From positions 930,001-994,000 of the forward strand of contig CP081940.1 in the NCBI GenBank assembly GCA_019823025.1: DNA of 64,000 nt. The letters are read 5' to 3'. Shown here piece by piece: positions 4,301 to 12,101 of this stretch (positions are counted from its first letter, which is position 1; each line of letters starts with the position of its first letter). Both the position numbers and the translations under genes were made by a program. Below the pieces are notes generated by a model, which had not been told where the DNA came from, searched no databases, and worked only from the letters and a program-made list of their open reading frames with translations. The DNA is from Methylophilales bacterium. Lineage in GTDB: Bacteria; Pseudomonadota; Gammaproteobacteria; Burkholderiales; Methylophilaceae.

Positions 4301-5137
4301 ACATATATTGGTATCTGCAATCCTTGATAGTTCTTCAGCATAAGGTCGCATAAGAGCTGCACCCAATGCACAATTTAATCCTATCGTTAATGGTTTTGCA
4401 TGCCTTATAGAGTTCCAAAATGCACTAACCGTTTGTCCAGATAATATTCTGCCCGAAGCATCAGTCACAGTTCCAGAAATCATAAGAGGTAATTTTTTAG
4501 AATTTTCTTCAAACACATGGTCAATGGCAAATAAGGCAGCTTTACAATTTAATGTATCAAAGACTGTCTCAACTAAAATAATATCAACACCACCCTCAAT
4601 AAGAGATTTTGTTTGCTCCTTATAAGATGCTACTAGTTGGTCAAAATCGACATTTCGTGCACCTGGATCATTGACGTCAGGTGATATCGATGCTGTTTTA
4701 GGCGTTGGCCCAATTGCCCCTGCGACAAACCTAGGTTTTTCAGGCGTGCTAATTTTTTTTGTTGCTTCTTTTGCAAGTCTGGCTGATTCAAAATTCATCT
4801 CATAAATCAGGTGGGGCATATAGTAATCATCTTGTGCAATGCTATTAGCTCCAAATGTATTCGTTTCTATGATATCTGCACCAGCATCGAGATAATCTTC
4901 ATGGATTTTCTTTATTATTTGCGGTTGTGTCAGGCTAAGTAGTTCGTTGTTGCCTTTTAAGAAAAGCTCTCGTTCCCCTTTAGGGGCAGAAAAATTGATG
5001 AATTTTCCATCTTTGCCACCTCGGTAATCATCCTCTGTCAAGTTATGTTGTTGGATCATCGTGCCCGTAGCACCATCCATAATCATAATTCGATTACTAA
5101 GGATTTCATTTAATTCAGCTTCTATTTCAGATGACAA
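1379..5137 (-). CDS. metH: Cobalamin-dependent methionine synthase
   Basis: Transfers a methyl group from methyl-tetrahydrofolate to homocysteine through cobalamin. At 1252 residues it is slightly longer than E. coli MetH and has all four modules. The homocysteine domain has zinc cysteines C256, C321 and C322. The folate domain begins around [11 protein letters not shown] (369-379). The B12 domain has DVHDIGKN (782-789), with H784 as the lower cobalt ligand. The C-terminal reactivation domain has [12 protein letters not shown]. It lies 13 bases after ubiK and 2 bases before mpl. I see no cobalamin or SAM riboswitch upstream; the short gap leaves no room. The cell therefore needs B12, made or imported; no B12 genes are visible here. 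Confidence 0.97.
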
Positions 5138-5150
5138 ATTTTTTTTCCCT

Positions 5151-5387
5151 TTACTTTATATTCTTTTCAATTTTAGATAATTGTTCTTCTAGCCTCTCAA
5201 GTTTTTCGCGTGTTTTCTTGAGAACGCCGGTTTGTACATCAAATTCTTCCCTGGTAATAAGGTCCATTTTGGTGAACATGCTCTTTAATAGTGCATTTAT
5301 ATTATCCTCAATGTCACTTATTGGTGAATCAGAAATAATATTTTTAATTTTTTGTGAAATTTCTTGAATTGTTTCTTTATCTACCAT
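5151..5387 (-). CDS. ubiK: UbiK-family ubiquinone biosynthesis accessory factor
   Basis: Small 78-residue protein of the BMFP/YqiC family. In the known family it is a trimeric coiled-coil factor that assists aerobic ubiquinone synthesis with UbiJ. The N-terminal half is an amphipathic helix region. The C-terminal half, about residue 45 onward, is rich in Leu, Glu and Lys in heptad-like spacing ([20 protein letters not shown]), a coiled coil. The length matches the family. It appears to head the ubiK-metH-mpl unit; the intergenic region upstream also carries the divergent promoter of torF. Confidence 0.85.
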
Positions 5388-5508
5388 ATATTCTTTCCGT
5401 AAAACGTTGATTTTAACAGGTTTTTTATATTTTATTGTTAATCAATTAATTTAATTTATTCCCCAAATTAGATTAAAAAAAACAAAAAAATTTAGAAAAT
5501 AACAAAGT

Positions 5509-5524
5509 TGGCACGGTTTTTGCT
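5509..5524 (+). promoter_or_regulatory. Sigma-54 (RpoN) promoter of torF-glnK-amtB
   Basis: TGGCACG at 5509-5515, four bases, then TTGCT at 5520-5524 matches the -24/-12 consensus TGGCACG-N4-TTGCW, with correct GG-to-GC spacing. The predicted start of transcription is about 5535, some 50 bases before the torF ATG. A nitrogen-regulated transporter operon is the expected target, and an NtrC with the sigma-54-contacting GAFTGA loop is encoded at 42298-43695. I could not find a clear TGCAC-N7-GTGCA activator site in the 120 bases upstream. Confidence 0.85.
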
Positions 5525-5583
5525 TTACATATAAGTGTACGCAAACAAAAGGCGTCAACGATATTTTAAAAGGAGAAAGTAGT

Positions 5584-6393
5584 ATGAACAAGAAATTAAT
5601 TAAAGCAGCTGTTATAGGAGCATTATTTTCAGTTGCACCAATGAGCTTTGCGGCTGATGAGGTAGAAGATGTTAAAGCACCTTCGATGCTTGATGATTTT
5701 AGTTTTAGTGGAAATGTAGGCTTATATTCAGATTATATATTCCGTGGCTACACTCAGACACAAAATGAGCCTGCAATTCAAGGTGGATTTGATGTGGAAC
5801 ATTCAAGTGGTTTATATGCGGGTACTTGGGCATCCAATGTAGATTGGACGACTGCAGGTGGTTATATGGATAAAAACAGTATTGAGATTGATGTTTACGC
5901 AGGCTGGGCAACCGATCTTGGTTTTTGGGGTTTAGGTTTTGATATTGGTGTTCTTCAGTTTTATTATCCAGGCAATAATACAGAAGGTGTGGCTGATACT
6001 GACGCCACAGAGGTTTATTTTGGATTTAGTAAAGACTGGTTGGATGGAGCATTTTCAACAAGTGTTACGAACTATGTTGTAGTTTCTGATGAGGCATGGG
6101 GCTTTGCGAATATGGATGGTGAAATGTACCACGACCTTACCGTTGATGTTCCAATTGGTTCTTCACCGCTAACATTATCAGGTCATGTTGGACACCAAAC
6201 TTTTGGTGGGCAAGGTGATGGTTATGATTGGGACTATACAGACTGGAAGGTGAATGTAGATTATGCGATTAATGATAATTTTTCAGCAGGTGCATTCTAT
6301 ACAGACACTGACCAAGACAAAGCTGCTTGGACAGTAGGTACTACTTATCTTGGTGATTCTACGGTTGGAGCTTACTTAAGCGCAGGATTCTAA
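5584..6393 (+). CDS. TorF-family putative outer-membrane porin
   Basis: 269-residue beta-barrel protein of the TorF / CHP02001 family, function unproven. It has a clear signal peptide (MNKKLIKAAVIGALFSVAPM, cleavage probably after SFA at residue 23). The mature part has alternating aromatic/Gly strands starting with the family pattern SDYIFRGYTQ and ends in AYLSAGF, with the C-terminal Phe typical of outer-membrane barrels. A strong Shine-Dalgarno (AGGAG, 5570-5574) precedes the ATG. It lies behind the sigma-54 promoter and 79 bases before glnK. The context suggests it lets small nitrogen compounds through the outer membrane under nitrogen limitation; that role is inference. Confidence 0.88.
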   Translation: MNKKLIKAAVIGALFSVAPMSFAADEVEDVKAPSMLDDFSFSGNVGLYSDYIFRGYTQTQNEPAIQGGFDVEHSSGLYAGTWASNVDWTTAGGYMDKNSIEIDVYAGWATDLGFWGLGFDIGVLQFYYPGNNTEGVADTDATEVYFGFSKDWLDGAFSTSVTNYVVVSDEAWGFANMDGEMYHDLTVDVPIGSSPLTLSGHVGHQTFGGQGDGYDWDYTDWKVNVDYAINDNFSAGAFYTDTDQDKAAWTVGTTYLGDSTVGAYLSAGF

Positions 6394-6400
6394 ATTGAAT

Positions 6401-6811
<411 letters not shown>

Positions 6812-6821
6812 GGAGACAATC

Positions 6822-8219
6822 ATGAATAAAATATTTTCAAAATTAGGAGTCATTGGTTTATTAAGCCTCTTCCTTCTTAGTTTTTCACAAATAGGTGTGT
6901 CAAACGAAGTCTTTGATATCACTCAAGAAACAGTTTTAGTTGCAGAACAAGATGTGCTCGTTGTGGAAGAAGCAGTTGAGGAGGCTCCCACACTTAACTC
7001 AGGTGATACTGCCTGGATGATCGTAGCAACAATATTAGTGATCGTGATGGCTATTCCTGGCTTAGCATTATTTTATGGCGGGTTAGTCAGATCTAAAAAC
7101 ATGTTATCGGTCTTGATGCAGGTTTTTGTGACCTTTTCTTTAATGTCAATACTCTGGGTTATTTACGGATATAGTGTGGCTTTTTCTGATGGCACAGGAA
7201 CGCCTTGGGGACAAATGATTGCGGGTGGTTTTGGCGCAGCATTTTTAAATGGCATTACCCCTGATACAGTGTCAGGCACAATTCCTGAATTTGTTTTTGT
7301 GACTTTCCAACTTACTTTTGCAGCACTAACACCCGCATTGATTGTTGGTGGATTTGCGGAAAGAATTAAGTTCTCAGGTATGCTTTTATTTATGACAGGC
7401 TGGTTTACGATTGTTTATCTTCCAATATGTCATATGGTTTGGGGCGGCGGACTTATCGCAGAAATGGGTGCAATTGATTTCGCTGGTGGTACCGTAGTTC
7501 ATATTAATGCAGGTATCGCAGCATTAGTCTTAGCACTTTTAATTGGACCAAGAATTGGCTTTGGTAAAGAGCCAATGCCTCCACACAATATGCCAATGAC
7601 GTTGATTGGCGCTGCCTTACTTTGGGCAGGTTGGTTCGGTTTCAATGTTGGTAGTGAACTAGCTGCCGATGGTGTAGCAGGTGCAGTGATGATTAATACG
7701 CAAATTGCAGCCGCTGCCGCAGTACTAGGTTGGTTATTTATTGAGTCTCTACAAAAAGGCAAAGCTTCATTGTTAGGTGGTGTGTCGGGTGCGATTTCAG
7801 GCCTAGTTGCAATCACTCCAGCTTGTGCGGTAGTGGGTCCGATGGGCGCAATTATCCTTGGCTTCGTAGCTTCAATATTTGCTTACTGGGCTTGTACTAG
7901 TCTTAAAAAAGCGATTGGTTACGATGACTCATTAGACGTATTTGGTATTCACGGTGTAGCAGGCATAGTCGGCGCACTAGGATTAGCAATTTTAATGTCA
8001 CCAACATTTGGTGGAGTTGGTTTTGATGAAGGCGTATCAATGGCTTCTCAATTTGTTATTCAAGCGAAGAGTGTTGGCATAACAATTGTTTGGTGTGCTA
8101 TTGCAACCTTCGTCTTATATAAAATTGTCAATTCCGTAGTGGGTATGAGGGTTTCAGATGAAAGCGAAAGAACTGGACTTGATACTACTTCTCACGGAGA
8201 GACTGCGTACCACTCTTAA
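6822..8219 (+). CDS. amtB: Ammonium transporter AmtB
   Basis: Inner-membrane ammonium channel. I place the start at ATG 6822 rather than the upstream in-frame TTG at 6759. AAGGAG at 6810-6815 is correctly spaced, and the resulting 465-residue protein begins with a normal signal peptide (MNKIFSKLGVIGLLSLFLLS). Eleven or so membrane helices follow. The twin pore histidines are visible as H227 (GGTVVHINAG) and H377 (DVFGIHGVAG). The gene follows glnK by 10 bases and ends before a strong terminator, so it closes the nitrogen operon. Residues 30-55 form an acidic, low-complexity periplasmic lead typical of betaproteobacterial AmtB. Confidence 0.96.
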   Translation: MNKIFSKLGVIGLLSLFLLSFSQIGVSNEVFDITQETVLVAEQDVLVVEEAVEEAPTLNSGDTAWMIVATILVIVMAIPGLALFYGGLVRSKNMLSVLMQVFVTFSLMSILWVIYGYSVAFSDGTGTPWGQMIAGGFGAAFLNGITPDTVSGTIPEFVFVTFQLTFAALTPALIVGGFAERIKFSGMLLFMTGWFTIVYLPICHMVWGGGLIAEMGAIDFAGGTVVHINAGIAALVLALLIGPRIGFGKEPMPPHNMPMTLIGAALLWAGWFGFNVGSELAADGVAGAVMINTQIAAAAAVLGWLFIESLQKGKASLLGGVSGAISGLVAITPACAVVGPMGAIILGFVASIFAYWACTSLKKAIGYDDSLDVFGIHGVAGIVGALGLAILMSPTFGGVGFDEGVSMASQFVIQAKSVGITIVWCAIATFVLYKIVNSVVGMRVSDESERTGLDTTSHGETAYHS

Positions 8220-8246
8220 TTATCCTCCTGTAATTTTAGAGTGATT

Positions 8247-8278
8247 AAAGGCCCACCGTTTGGTGGGCCTTTTTTTTT
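8247..8278 (+). terminator. Rho-independent terminator after amtB
   Basis: AAAGGCCCACC (8247-8257), loop GTTT, then GGTGGGCCTTT (8262-8272), giving an 11-bp perfect stem followed by a T-run to 8278. It lies 28 bases after the amtB stop and ends the torF-glnK-amtB transcript. Confidence 0.95.
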
Positions 8279-8408
8279 ATTGTATATAATATTTTACGTT
8301 CATGATTTTACTTAGGGTATTTTCATAACAGATTAATTAGCAATCCATGTATATTTACATCACTATTATTTATTTAGTAGAATTTAAAAATTGAAAGGAG
8401 ATCATATT

Positions 8409-8480
8409 ATGTGGACAACACCAGTTGCAACTGAAATGCGTTTCGGTTTTGAAGTAACAATGTACGTAATGAACAAGTAA
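8409..8480 (+). CDS. pqqA: PQQ precursor peptide PqqA
   Basis: A 23-residue peptide beginning MWTTPVATEM and ending FEVTMYVMNK. It carries the PqqA hallmark E-x3-Y (E15 and Y19 in FEVTMY). These two residues are cross-linked by PqqE and excised to form pyrroloquinoline quinone. A strong Shine-Dalgarno (AAAGGAG, 8394-8400) lies 8 bases before the ATG, and a perfect terminator follows, so it looks like a single-gene transcript. It is too short for routine gene calling. No pqqBCDE is next to it; separate or multiple pqqA genes are known in methylotrophs. PQQ is the cofactor of periplasmic methanol/alcohol dehydrogenases, so this gene supports a methylotroph identity. Confidence 0.93.
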   Translation: MWTTPVATEMRFGFEVTMYVMNK

Positions 8481-8500
8481 TTGTTTATTTACTTTATATT

Positions 8501-8531
8501 AAAAAAAGGAACTCTTTGAGTTCCTTTTTTT
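8501..8531. terminator. Bidirectional terminator shared by pqqA (+) and mltA (-)
   Basis: AAAAAAAGGAACTC (8501-8514), loop TTT, GAGTTCCTTTTTTT (8518-8531): a perfect 14-bp inverted repeat with A-tract and T-tract flanks, able to end transcription from both sides. The mltA stop codon (minus strand, 8530-8532) overlaps its edge. Confidence 0.92.
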
Positions 8532-9723
8532 ATGGAAGCTTAAAGCCTTTAGGTAACAAAACCCATATCCGACCATCTTGTTTCATTTTGCCAGCCATCT
8601 TGCCAGCTTCATTTCCTTGCCCCCAATAAAAATCTGCTCTAACACCACCATTAATGGCACCACCAGTATCTTGAGCAATCATAAGCTGTTTTATAGGGAT
8701 ATCAGTATTTGGTTTAGTTGTCTTGAGAAAAATAGGCGCACCAAGTGGGACATACCTACGATCTATAGCAACTGATCTTTCAGATGTTATGGGAACACCA
8801 AGTGCGCCAATTGGGCCAGGTAAGCCTTCTGGCAGAATTCTAAAAAATACATAACTTGGGTTAGCGCTTAAGAATTTTCTTAATTTCTTTTTATTATTTT
8901 TTGCCCATTTTTTAATACTTTGCATAGAAACCTTACCTCTTTGCAATTCTCCCGCTCGAATAAGTGCACGGCCCATTGAGCGATAGGGGTGTCCATTTTG
9001 ATCTGCATATCCAATTTGAATTCTTTTGCCATTATTAAACTCAATGACACCGGATCCTTGAATTTCCAGAAAAAAAGCTTCAACGGCATTATTGACCCAA
9101 ACTAATTCATTCCCTTTTAGAGGGGCCACTTTTTCTGTAATTTCATCTCTTGTAAAGTAAGGGACTAATTTATTACCCTCAACTCTTCCTCTCAATCTTT
9201 TATACTTTAAGTCAGGATAAATTTCACTTAGATTGACCGTTATTAAATCGTCAGGAATAGAGTATAGGGGAATATTGTATTTTTTTGTTTTCTCCCAATT
9301 GCCCTGAAGTACAGGCTGATAATATCCTGTAATTAATCCTTCTTTTGAGCCGTCATTATTTGTTGCTTGATATAAATTAAAATAATTTCTGTAGTAATTA
9401 ATTATTTCGTCATTACTTGGAGACGAGCCAATTAAATAAGCTTGCTCACAAACTTTACGCCAAGATTTTTTATTGATAAGCGTTGAGCAGCTTCTCATCC
9501 AAGCAGGCCATGCGAGAATCAAGTAGTCTTCCGAGAGTGCATACTCAATGTCACTCCAGTATGTTTCTTTAAGAAAGCTGTAGGGTTTAAATTTGACTTC
9601 TTTTTTTTCTTCAACGACCGGCGGTTCTACTTCAGGGCAATTACAATCTACAGGTGGTTGAGCATCTTGACAGCCCGCTAGGAATAAAAACAAAACAATC
9701 AGTAATCTAGGTGAGCTGATCAA
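8530..9723 (-). CDS. mltA: Membrane-bound lytic murein transglycosylase A
   Basis: Outer-membrane lipoprotein that cleaves peptidoglycan glycan strands to 1,6-anhydro-muropeptides. The 397-residue protein has a lipoprotein signal ending in the lipobox LAGC (Cys18). A C-terminal 3D domain contains QDTGGAINGGVRADFYWG, with the conserved catalytic-type aspartates. The lead after Cys18 is proline- and acid-rich. The start overlaps the end of apaG by 4 bases (ATGA), so the two are translationally coupled. Its products would be imported by AmpG (22561-23790) and reused through Mpl. Confidence 0.94.
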   Translation of the reverse strand: MISSPRLLIVLFLFLAGCQDAQPPVDCNCPEVEPPVVEEKKEVKFKPYSFLKETYWSDIEYALSEDYLILAWPAWMRSCSTLINKKSWRKVCEQAYLIGSSPSNDEIINYYRNYFNLYQATNNDGSKEGLITGYYQPVLQGNWEKTKKYNIPLYSIPDDLITVNLSEIYPDLKYKRLRGRVEGNKLVPYFTRDEITEKVAPLKGNELVWVNNAVEAFFLEIQGSGVIEFNNGKRIQIGYADQNGHPYRSMGRALIRAGELQRGKVSMQSIKKWAKNNKKKLRKFLSANPSYVFFRILPEGLPGPIGALGVPITSERSVAIDRRYVPLGAPIFLKTTKPNTDIPIKQLMIAQDTGGAINGGVRADFYWGQGNEAGKMAGKMKQDGRIWVLLPKGFKLP

Positions 9724-10103
9724 TGCAGTGTTCTCGGCATATTTAACTCAAACTTTGGAATTTCAACATCAAAGCTTATTTCGCTCTCTGTTAACATTTG
9801 ATAAGAGCCCCACATAAAACCCGAGGGGGTGCTAATTTCAGTGAAACTTGAATAATTGTAAACTTCTCCAGGAGCGATTGTTGGTTGCTCTCCAATCACA
9901 CCCTCTCCTTTAACTTCAAATTTTTCAAACTTTGAATTCTCAATTATCCAATGCCTGCTGATTAATTGTATGGGTTGTTGGCTTTCATTTTTAATCTCAA
10001 CCTCATAAGCAAAAACGTATTTATTGAATTCAATCATAGAATTTTTTTCAATAAAATTTGGTGTCACTTTAATTAAAATATGGTTATTCTCTTTATCCAT
10101 CAC
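9720..10103 (-). CDS. apaG: ApaG domain protein
   Basis: 127-residue single-domain protein with an immunoglobulin-like beta fold. In other bacteria apaG loss affects Co/Mg resistance, but its molecular role is unsettled. The family pattern is visible in [20 protein letters not shown], then [24 protein letters not shown] and a [12 protein letters not shown] block. The length matches the usual 125-130 residues. It overlaps thiG by 4 bases upstream and mltA by 4 bases downstream, so it sits inside a thiS-thiG-apaG-mltA unit. Confidence 0.94.
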
Positions 10104-10885
10104 TTAATTAATCCTGAAGTTGGTGAGCTTGGGTCTGCTTGATAAAACTTTTTCTTCATCCTACCTGCTAGGAAAGCCTCCCTCCCTGATTCAATAGCTT
10201 TTTTCATTGCAGCCGCCATTAAAATAGGATTTTCGGCAGCCGCAATGGCTGTATTCATTAAAACCCCATCACAACCAAGCTCCATTGCAATAACTGCATC
10301 TGAAGCAGTACCTACGCCTGCGTCTACAATGACTGGAACCTTTGCATTATCAATGATAATTTCTAAATTATGAGGGTTTAAGATACCCATTCCAGAACCG
10401 ATGAGTGATGCTAATGGCATGATGGCACAGCAGCCTATATCTTCAAGTTCTTTTGCAATAATAGGATCATCTGATGTATAAACCATGACATCAAATCCTT
10501 CCTTAATTAAAATTTTGGCAGCCTCTACAGTTTCAACAACATTCGGATATAGCGTATTTGGATCACCTAAGACCTCTAATTTGACAAGGTTATGTCCGTC
10601 TAAAAGTTCTCTCGCAAGTCGCAATGTTCTAATGGCATCATCTTTTGTATAACATCCTGCTGTATTGGGTAAATATGTATATTTTTCCTTGGGTATAAAA
10701 TCTAACAAAGATTCTTCTTTAATATCTTGTCCAATATTAGTTCTTCTAATTGCAACCGTCACAATCTCTGCACCACTTTCTTTTATAGCTGTTTGGGTTT
10801 CTTTAAAATCTTTATATTTACCTGTGCCTACTAGAAGCCTAGATAAATAATGTTTTCCTGCAATTAAAAATTTGTCTGATTCCAT
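10100..10885 (-). CDS. thiG: Thiazole synthase
   Basis: Makes the thiazole phosphate half of thiamine from deoxyxylulose-5-phosphate, dehydroglycine and sulfur delivered by ThiS thiocarboxylate. The 261-residue TIM-barrel protein has the active-site lysine in VKLEVLGD (K102), glycine-rich phosphate-binding turns, [18 protein letters not shown], and a C-terminal [18 protein letters not shown] stretch typical of ThiG. It starts 3 bases after the thiS stop. No thiO/thiH, thiF or thiE is visible nearby. Confidence 0.95.
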
Positions 10886-10888
10886 TAA

Positions 10889-11092
10889 TTAGCCGCCACC
10901 TACGGCTATAACAATCTCGAGTTTGTCACCCTCTTTTAAAAAGGTTTGAGAGAAATTACTTTTTGAAATTATTTCCCCATTATATTCTATGGCAAACTTT
11001 TTTTCATTAAGTGCTAATTCTTTAATTAATGTAGTAAGGCACATTTCTGAAGCTTCAAAACTTTTTTGTTGCCCATTAACGTAAATTTTCAT
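10889..11092 (-). CDS. thiS: Sulfur carrier protein ThiS
   Basis: 67-residue ubiquitin-fold sulfur carrier. Its C-terminal Gly-Gly tail (IVIAVGGG) is adenylated and converted to a thiocarboxylate for ThiG. I choose ATG at 11092 because the protein then begins MKIYVNGQQKSF, the normal ThiS start; longer in-frame extensions upstream add only low-complexity Phe/Lys sequence. It is 3 bases from thiG. The upstream region has no recognisable TPP riboswitch. Confidence 0.92.
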   Translation of the reverse strand: MKIYVNGQQKSFEASEMCLTTLIKELALNEKKFAIEYNGEIISKSNFSQTFLKEGDKLEIVIAVGGG

Positions 11093-11154
11093 CAGGTTAT
11101 TTTTAAAATTAAAAAATTTGAATTTATTACTATAACCTTTATCATATAACAGTA

Positions 11155-11173
11155 ATTGGGACAAAATCCCAAT
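11155..11173. other. Inverted repeat between thiS and the divergent small ORF
   Basis: ATTGGGA (11155-11161), loop CAAAA, TCCCAAT (11167-11173): a perfect 7-bp stem in the 113-base divergent region between thiS and the putative gene at 11206. It could be an operator or a leader hairpin. It is not a terminator, since no T-run follows on either strand. Confidence 0.35.
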
Positions 11174-11205
11174 AATTTTTAAATTCCCAAAAGGAAAAAA
11201 ATATT

Positions 11206-11364
11206 TTGAAAAGAAAAAAAACAAATCCTCAGCTTTACCAAGTGCAAACTGACACTTCTAATTTAAAACTTGAAAGTGATGTTAAAACTCAATCAAAAGA
11301 GATAAAAAAAATAAACCACAACAATTTTCATAGAGCACTCGAAGCTTTTTCTGATTGCGTTTAG
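11206..11364 (+). CDS. Putative small basic protein, 52 aa (TTG start)
   Basis: Unrecognised. From TTG 11206 the frame encodes 52 residues beginning MKRKKTNPQLYQVQTDTSN and ending FHRALEAFSDCV, then TAG. An AAGGA motif at 11190-11194 lies 11 bases upstream. The composition is protein-like (mixed, not repetitive) and codon use resembles neighbours. It has no signal peptide or membrane segment. The 3' end overlaps the 3' end of the convergent hydrolase gene by 4 bases, the same tight packing seen at real gene ends here. Against it: the non-ATG start and short length. I give no function. Confidence 0.5.
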   Translation: MKRKKTNPQLYQVQTDTSNLKLESDVKTQSKEIKKINHNNFHRALEAFSDCV

Positions 11365-12101
11365 CTTTTTAAAGCTCTATTAAATAGGCCGAAAGTTAAC
11401 TGATAACATATTGCTGCAAGTTCAGCATCATATCTTTCGCCCTCATCTCTCATAAAAGCATGTTGAGCATTAAATTCATGCCAGCTGAATTTAATTTTAG
11501 TATCTAGCAGTTGTTGATGTATATTTGTTCGTTTCTCAGTAGGTATATGATTATCTTGCTTTCCCCAAATCATTAATAATTCACCCTGAATGTCTGAAAG
11601 TCTTTCCATACTGTGCTGTCCAGGTTTATTTGGGATTGTATTTGTATGAAGATCTGTAGCATAAAAGCAGGCTGTAGCCTTAATACTTGGATTAAGAGCA
11701 GCTCTAAATGCAAGATGACCACCAATGCAAAAACCCATTGCACCGATATGACCATTTGACCACTTTTGTGTTTCGATCCAGTCAATCATGGCTTGATTAT
11801 CTGAATCATATGATTGAACATCTTTTTCAGATTTATCAGCATTGCCTTTATCTCTTCCTGCATCATCGTAATTAAGCACGGTGCCAATTTCATTAAGTTC
11901 ATGAAAAACTTCGGGCACCAAAACTACAAATCCGTGGCTTGCTAAAATTTTGGCAGCTCTTTCTATTGGGCCTGTTTGTTGAAAAATTTCTGAATAAAAA
12001 AGAATAGCAGGAAACTTCGAGGTTGATTTTGGCCTATGAACATAAGTTCTCATTATTCCTGTTGGTGTATTTAAATCAACAAACTCAGACTCTAGTATCA
12101 T
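11361..12101 (-). CDS. Dienelactone hydrolase family protein
   Basis: 246-residue cytoplasmic alpha/beta hydrolase. The dienelactone-hydrolase triad is visible as Cys125 in GFCIGG, Asp183 in WGKQDNHIPTEK, and His214 in NAQHAFMRDE. The start MILESEFVDLNTPTG resembles many proteobacterial carboxymethylenebutenolidase-like proteins. True substrates of such stand-alone members are usually unknown; no chlorocatechol pathway genes are nearby, so the original substrate name should not be assumed. It is flanked by a small ORF (convergent) and a lipoprotein gene 95 bases upstream. Confidence 0.88.
   Translation of the reverse strand: MILESEFVDLNTPTGIMRTYVHRPKSTSKFPAILFYSEIFQQTGPIERAAKILASHGFVVLVPEVFHELNEIGTVLNYDDAGRDKGNADKSEKDVQSYDSDNQAMIDWIETQKWSNGHIGAMGFCIGGHLAFRAALNPSIKATACFYATDLHTNTIPNKPGQHSMERLSDIQGELLMIWGKQDNHIPTEKRTNIHQQLLDTKIKFSWHEFNAQHAFMRDEGERYDAELAAICYQLTFGLFNRALKS

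Follow-up and report, generated by a model that had tools for sequence, protein, structure and literature searches.

A stand-alone pqqA gene of an OM43-type methylotroph and a candidate operator common to scattered pqqA genes of the Methylophilaceae

Why does a bacterium with a genome of 1.34 Mb keep a gene of 23 codons standing by itself, and what would control such a gene? The question is raised by a pqqA gene in a stretch of 64,000 nucleotides (hereafter the window), which corresponds to bases 930001-994000 of a single contig of 1,336,408 bases. Judging by its sequence, the host is an OM43-type member of the Methylophilaceae, a marine methanol-user with a small genome. Among named loci, the closest MltA to the one encoded next to this gene is that of a BACL14 MAG (99% identity), and pqqA converges on mltA likewise in HTCC2181, in KB13, in two LSUCC isolates and in one OM43 clade record.

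It is necessary to establish that the gene is real. The hallmark of PqqA is a Glu-x3-Tyr pair in a short peptide, some 22-29 residues long, and the product of the window ORF, MWTTPVATEMRFGFEVTMYVMNK, with 23 residues and the pair at E15 and Y19, fits it. The peptide scores 35.9 bits with PF08042 (cut-off 21.1) and 34.7 bits with TIGR02107 (cut-off 20). Since both curated PqqA models are passed, the ORF is not there by chance, and these scores together with a dN/dS of about 0.14 across 24 copies of the mltA-side pqqA locus (window copy included) rule out a chance ORF or a pseudogene. PF08042 itself is discriminating in whole-genome searches, with matches in 185 of 187 Methylophilaceae genomes and in none of 14 control genomes. 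The window ORF is a genuine pqqA, which encodes the precursor peptide of the cofactor PQQ; its translation and its conversion to PQQ are predicted. The initial annotation had described a 23-residue pqqA with the E15-x3-Y19 core, its own ribosome-binding site and a perfect terminator, and every part of that description holds (Table 1). The repeat downstream is the pqqA terminator and probably serves the converging mltA too. The consensus terminator scan lists the amtB terminator alone and missed this one, the T run having probably been taken as part of the stem.

Table 1. Features around the pqqA gene (positions of the window)
Feature	Position	Strand	Basis or remark
glnK (P-II) and amtB	6473-8219	+	neighbours in the window genome and part of the OM43 group
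terminator-like repeat after amtB	8247-8272	+	consensus scan; separates pqqA from the nitrogen operon
PQQ box TCATGATTTTACTTAGGGTATTTTCATA	8300-8327	+	1 mismatch to TMATGAWWWTNNTKAGNNNNNNNTMATG
probable -10 hexamer TATATT	8350-8355	+	alignment of 15 leaders; not in the consensus promoter scan
short leader hairpin CTATTA/TAGTAG	8363-8380	+	fold; at the expected transcript start
ribosome-binding site AAAGGAG	8394-8400	+	read from sequence; 8 nt 5' of the ATG
pqqA, 23 aa	8409-8480	+	ORF, PF08042 and TIGR02107
perfect inverted repeat, 14-bp stem, 3-nt loop	8501-8531		read from sequence
mltA, converging on pqqA	8530-9723	-	widely kept neighbour

Does the host possess the rest of the pathway? PqqE and PqqD link Glu15 to Tyr19, and PqqB and PqqC finish PQQ. 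The genes pqqB, pqqC, pqqD and pqqE are clustered at 329890-333022, each above its own cut-off (pqqE 517 bits, pqqC 337, pqqB 408, pqqD 92.4 against a cut-off of 46), and pqqE, the one of the four that was searched for genome-wide, occurs a single time above its cut-off. At 1019575-1023122 a PQQ dehydrogenase of the methanol/ethanol family (625 aa) is followed by a MoxJ-like protein and then by a cytochrome that scores below the MoxG cut-off; from the gene order we take this cluster to be of the xoxFJG type. A second, more divergent PQQ enzyme, with a score under the family cut-off, lies at 898233-899990. The initial annotation had proposed that the organism makes PQQ and uses a PQQ alcohol/methanol dehydrogenase, an idea which, as was said beforehand, depends on pqqB-E; all four genes are present, and together with the methanol/ethanol-family enzyme and its MoxJ-like partner they support it at the gene level. 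Further copies of pqqA, which had been suggested as well, were sought and two were found, a tandem pair at 434248-434503 (-), so that the genome holds three.

Multiple copies are the rule in these bacteria. In the host genus pqqA occurs in 29 of 31 genomes, with exactly three copies in all 14 that are at least 90% complete, and family-wide it occurs in 185 of 187 genomes with up to 12 copies. The literature says the same: Methylophilaceae carry 3 to 12 pqqA genes, while the other pqq genes are single in all but one genome (PMC4109929), and five copies, three of them separate and with differing expression, have been described (PMC9851590). In Methylovorus sp. MP688 five pqqA genes are reported to be differentially regulated and the availability of PqqA is cited as rate-determining (Ge et al. 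2015, via PMC11317620 and PMC9851590). The earlier statement that methylotrophs can carry several separate pqqA genes is borne out by PMC4109929. Scattered multi-copy pqqA genes are already known in the Methylophilaceae, and therefore the stand-alone window copy is by itself ordinary. The systems of PMC4109929 and PMC9851590 share with ours the peptide, the several copies, their place away from pqqBCDE and the family; they differ in that the accessible portions of these accounts describe neither a shared operator nor a structured leader, and in that the window genome belongs to the OM43 group.

What appears to be new is an element upstream of the gene. In an alignment of the window locus with 23 relatives one block upstream of pqqA stands out from the adjoining DNA by its higher conservation, and a similar block is present at the tandem-pair promoter in 23 genomes. 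We refer to this 28-bp element, TMATGAWWWTNNTKAG-N7-TMATG, as the PQQ box; the general search pattern is TMATGAWWWTNNTKAGNNNNNNNTMATG. The two boxes of the window genome agree at 22 of 28 positions, as against 15/40 and 10/40 in their 40-nt flanks. A first pattern, derived from these boxes and allowed up to three mismatches, matched the window genome at the two pqqA loci alone, the reversed pattern giving two chance matches; TMATGAWWWTNNTKAGNNNNNNNTMATG has no exact match there and two with one mismatch, again both at pqqA loci. When 39 pqqA copies from other genera were inspected by eye, most were seen to carry a version of the box and some a full palindrome, for example CTCATGAAAATCATGAG.

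The pattern was then counted in three sets of genomes. In 16 genomes TMATGAWWWTNNTKAGNNNNNNNTMATG with up to two mismatches gave 120 matches and the reversed pattern 42. If a match within 260 bases upstream of pqqA is counted as being at the gene, this applies to all 21 exact matches and to 17 of the 22 with one mismatch; matches with two mismatches are near chance level (14 of 77, 9 of these on the same strand). One of the five one-mismatch matches elsewhere precedes another gene, in genome G103. Five genomes whose pqqA promoters had not knowingly been inspected when the pattern was made gave 4/4, 5/7 and 8/27 at zero, one and two mismatches. On the same strand the box lies 82 to 148 bases from pqqA across the 16 genomes. 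In the host genus 53 matches with at most one mismatch were obtained, 44 of them at pqqA (20/21 exact, 24/32 one-mismatch), and none with the reversed pattern. Across the 187 genomes of the family the pattern matches exactly 187 times, in 106 genomes that represent 22 of the 24 genera, and the reversed pattern once. For 30 of these exact matches the sequence that follows was inspected; in 28 cases pqqA begins 91 to 147 bases further on (17/18 in the host genus, 11/12 in other genera), and in 2 it does not.

How general is the box among pqq genes? With up to two mismatches it precedes 51 of the 79 pqqA copies in the 16 genomes. The 28 copies that lack it include second genes of tandem pairs, and 8 of them belong to two genomes of genus g14, where just 2 of 22 genomes have an exact box. 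Two others of the five one-mismatch matches away from pqqA, in genomes G060 and G061, stand before pqqB, followed by pqqC (pqqB 381.6 and 383.4 bits). Within 300 bases before pqqB, xoxF and the second dehydrogenase gene of the window genome there is no box with fewer than four mismatches, the best matches having 4, 6 and 6, respectively. A palindrome, CTCATGATATCCATGAG, is found 70 to 98 bases before pqqB of the window genome and fits, but for one mismatch, the palindromic part of the box; its hairpin runs into a T tract, and it may be the terminator of the upstream gene, an operator, or both. The box is found at pqq promoters more than elsewhere, and it is not at every one of them, given the 28 copies without it and the palindromic part alone at pqqB of the window genome. 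In our opinion it looks like a shared control site, that is, a candidate operator, and an element common to scattered pqqA genes across the family appears to be the new point, with good statistical support. We found no prior description of it in the literature searched (pqqA promoters, methanol dehydrogenase motifs, Methylophilaceae), in which subscription journals are thinly covered, and the report of Ge et al. (2015) on Methylovorus sp. MP688 may include promoter elements that overlap it.

The 3' end of the box lies 22 bases before the conserved TATATT, and therefore its last part would cover the -35 position. Which protein would bind there? The palindromic variants CTAATGAAAATCATTAG and CTCATGAAAATCATGAG resemble the centre of a Fur box, and the window genome has one gene of the Fur family (1194035-1194397); the likeness to Fur-family operators consists of these two points. 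Unlike Fur operators, the box of the OM43 group has a second half-site that is mostly degenerate and a third, at +23, that is kept, and its one-mismatch matches in the window genome are confined to the pqqA loci. Fur as the reader of the box is a lead, with putative binding. In Methylorubrum extorquens a separate promoter has been mapped upstream of pqqA (PMC9320726). The hexamers given there (TTGCAG and CGATAT; TGGCGC and TGATGG) are unlike the PQQ box, and the organism is of a different bacterial class (PMC9320726).

Downstream of the hexamer the leader was examined as RNA. The outer arm triplets of its short hairpin match in all 24 leaders, window included, CTA going with TAG and CTG with CAG: the 11 leaders with TAGAAT all contain CTA and none CTG, and the 13 with CAGAAT all contain CTG, four of them CTA too. 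The fold energy of the window leader is not significant (z +0.25). A stable RNA fold in this leader was considered and rejected, as the energy does not favour it and the support comes down to the matching triplets. Twelve leaders were folded and a low z was obtained for two of them, the tandem leader of the window genome (-3.97) and the leader of a pqqA gene in genome G082 (-5.42).

The tandem leader is a different matter. It occupies 434504-434615 (-) before the first tandem pqqA, is about 100 nt long and has a mean column identity of 81% in 18 OM43 genomes (18 of 23). It folds into a multi-branched structure that is closed by a helix between GUAAAUCUC and GAGAAAUAC, and the GGAG is therefore paired. 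Double changes occur in five of six pairs of helix 3 and in one of six of helix 2; helices 1 and 4 have none and are therefore without covariation support. Altogether 31 cells are double-changed, compared with 7.4 in shuffles and at most 14 in slid versions, and the covariation score of 0.217 (against 0.101) is reached by none of 500 shuffles. A weaker measure is the number of double-changed pairs, six, which 24 of the 500 shuffles also attain. A covariance model run against 93 sources matches the tandem pair of the window genome; in other genera it gave a chance-level match alone (E 0.44), the 93 sources not including other OM43 tandem loci. No Rfam family reaches its gathering score in four loci, L001 (which holds the tandem leader), L012, L126 and L144, or in positions 5000-11500 of the window, and the structure is absent at the window copy. 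We regard the tandem leader as a candidate cis-regulatory RNA in which the closing helix would mask the ribosome-binding site. It is like leaders and riboswitches that sequester such sites in that its multi-branched fold pairs the region of the ribosome-binding site of the first tandem pqqA, and unlike known riboswitches in that no Rfam family matches it at gathering score and the pqqA loci examined from other genera did not yield it.

We can now return to the question of control. We think it probable that the window gene is one of three pqqA copies that is transcribed alone, that a box-bound regulator sets a PQQ output limited by the precursor, and that the tandem leader adds a second layer. 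From its box, ribosome-binding site and terminator, the window gene would give a short mRNA of its own. Each molecule of PQQ, destined for the XoxF-type dehydrogenase, would cost one peptide, and cells would keep several independent pqqA genes because the peptide is consumed and the enzymes are catalytic. For most of the pqqA copies tested the PQQ box, at about -35 to -60, would be the common operator, read by a DNA-binding regulator; PQQ output would in this way be set by the supply of precursor. In the OM43 group control of the tandem pair would have a further layer: its leader is structured, and the closing helix would mask the pair's own ribosome-binding site. A wider version of the proposal strikes us as rather unlikely, yet not negligible: that Methylophilaceae and their phages possess a dedicated PQQ regulon, in which one transcription factor acts on scattered pqqA genes and, in certain members, on pqqBCDE, while the OM43 tandem leader responds to PQQ, or to some related metal or metabolite, by closing the ribosome-binding site; the precursor peptide would then be the point at which cofactor supply is set.

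One may object that the extra genes are plain dosage copies and that the upstream element they share is a duplication relic without a regulatory role. Indeed, the copies are paralogs, paralogous promoters can share sequence by descent and may be copied along with their genes, and multi-copy pqqA is known in this family (PMC4109929). However, 22 of 24 genera have retained the element, while in the window genome the sequences on either side of it have drifted apart, and in two genomes it also stands before pqqB. A weaker form of the box is moreover present before pqqA on viral contigs. DNA coding for the core MRFGFEVTMYV was found on IMG/VR contigs (viral status as per IMG/VR) in at least 120 stretches, and among the 108 distinct 160-base upstream stretches listed, 27 contain the box with up to three mismatches, where shuffles lead one to expect 0.4; the narrower form of the box has three exact matches in viral contigs, none of them before pqqA. 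PqqA on a virus of methylotrophs has already been reported (PMC7678222). In view of this we consider the relic an improbable explanation and keep to an operator that would be read by a regulator. The matter bears on how the supply of PQQ is matched to methanol dehydrogenases and on genes of 23 codons that can occur in a dozen copies. A defined 28-bp element common to scattered copies makes the regulator findable and the question testable with reporters, and it offers a route to unannotated pqqA genes; it also hints that this control may be exploited by phages of methylotrophs.

A further alternative is that the orphan peptide serves a role other than PQQ synthesis, for instance a part in lanthanide uptake, as has been suggested for orphan pqqA of M. 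extorquens, in which the neodymium source affects how the orphans pqqA2 and pqqA3 are expressed (PMC11317620). For the window copy this is very improbable: the three copies of the genome do not differ in the stretch ATEMRFGFEVTMYV, a single pqqE exceeds the cut-off genome-wide, and no other peptide-modifying enzyme was seen among the neighbours scanned.

We disagree with the initial annotation regarding the surroundings of the gene, where it found the place beside the nitrogen operon and the distance from pqqBCDE to be notable. The latter applies to all three copies of this genome. As to the former, among 74 named mltA loci pqqA converges on mltA within 250 bp in 36, lies within 5 kb on the same side in 8 and elsewhere in 1; 22 have no pqqA, with at least 300 bases of sequence present, and 7 are not assessable. 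Judged by identity and gene order, 21 of the 36 converging loci are OM43-like, and the other 15 include records of Methylotenera, Methylophilus and Methylophilaceae. In the host genus amtB is directly 5' of pqqA at 13 of 19 loci (in one with a broken frame and 0.5 kb away), and two ORFs lie between at the other 6; at one of these the translations seem, by eye, unrelated to PQQ or nitrogen. Outside the OM43 group amtB adjoins pqqA at none of the 14 assessable mltA-adjacent loci, a 15th having too little sequence. The widely kept neighbour is mltA, and the nitrogen operon looks incidental, an accident of the OM43 group. A link of the window copy to nitrogen status by virtue of its position behind glnK-amtB, as the adjacency in the window genome and at those 13 loci might suggest, is hardly credible and is rejected on gene order, given the terminator-like repeat in between, the 6 loci with intervening ORFs and the lack of such adjacency outside the OM43 group.

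Several minor observations were made along the way. About 1.5 kb from the tandem pair, at 436014-436772, there is a gene for a quinoprotein dehydrogenase-associated SoxYZ-like carrier (TIGR04557). The pqqA promoter of G082 (L209) has a long leader hairpin (z -5.42); near this pqqA lie a gene that matches Fur-family regulators (PerR and Zur among others) weakly and below cut-off, and a second gene that reads by eye like a CobW-type GTPase. In 20 genomes of the host genus the tandem pqqA genes enclose a conserved short ORF (about 24-32 aa) whose product has an HxWxCxCPxC-like motif; it was not found in the genome of the window, where the stretch between the tandem copies looks decayed. The core of this micropeptide has a dN/dS of about 0.09, its Pfam match is sub-threshold alone, and relatives occur in 12 genomes of three other genera, some of them beside pqqA. 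Finally, genome G080 contains two-mismatch box-like sites at 479113 and 485033 (-), each before an ORF of about 58 aa; one of these ORFs was scanned and had no Pfam match, and at one of the sites the ORF region is followed by the cysteine micropeptide.
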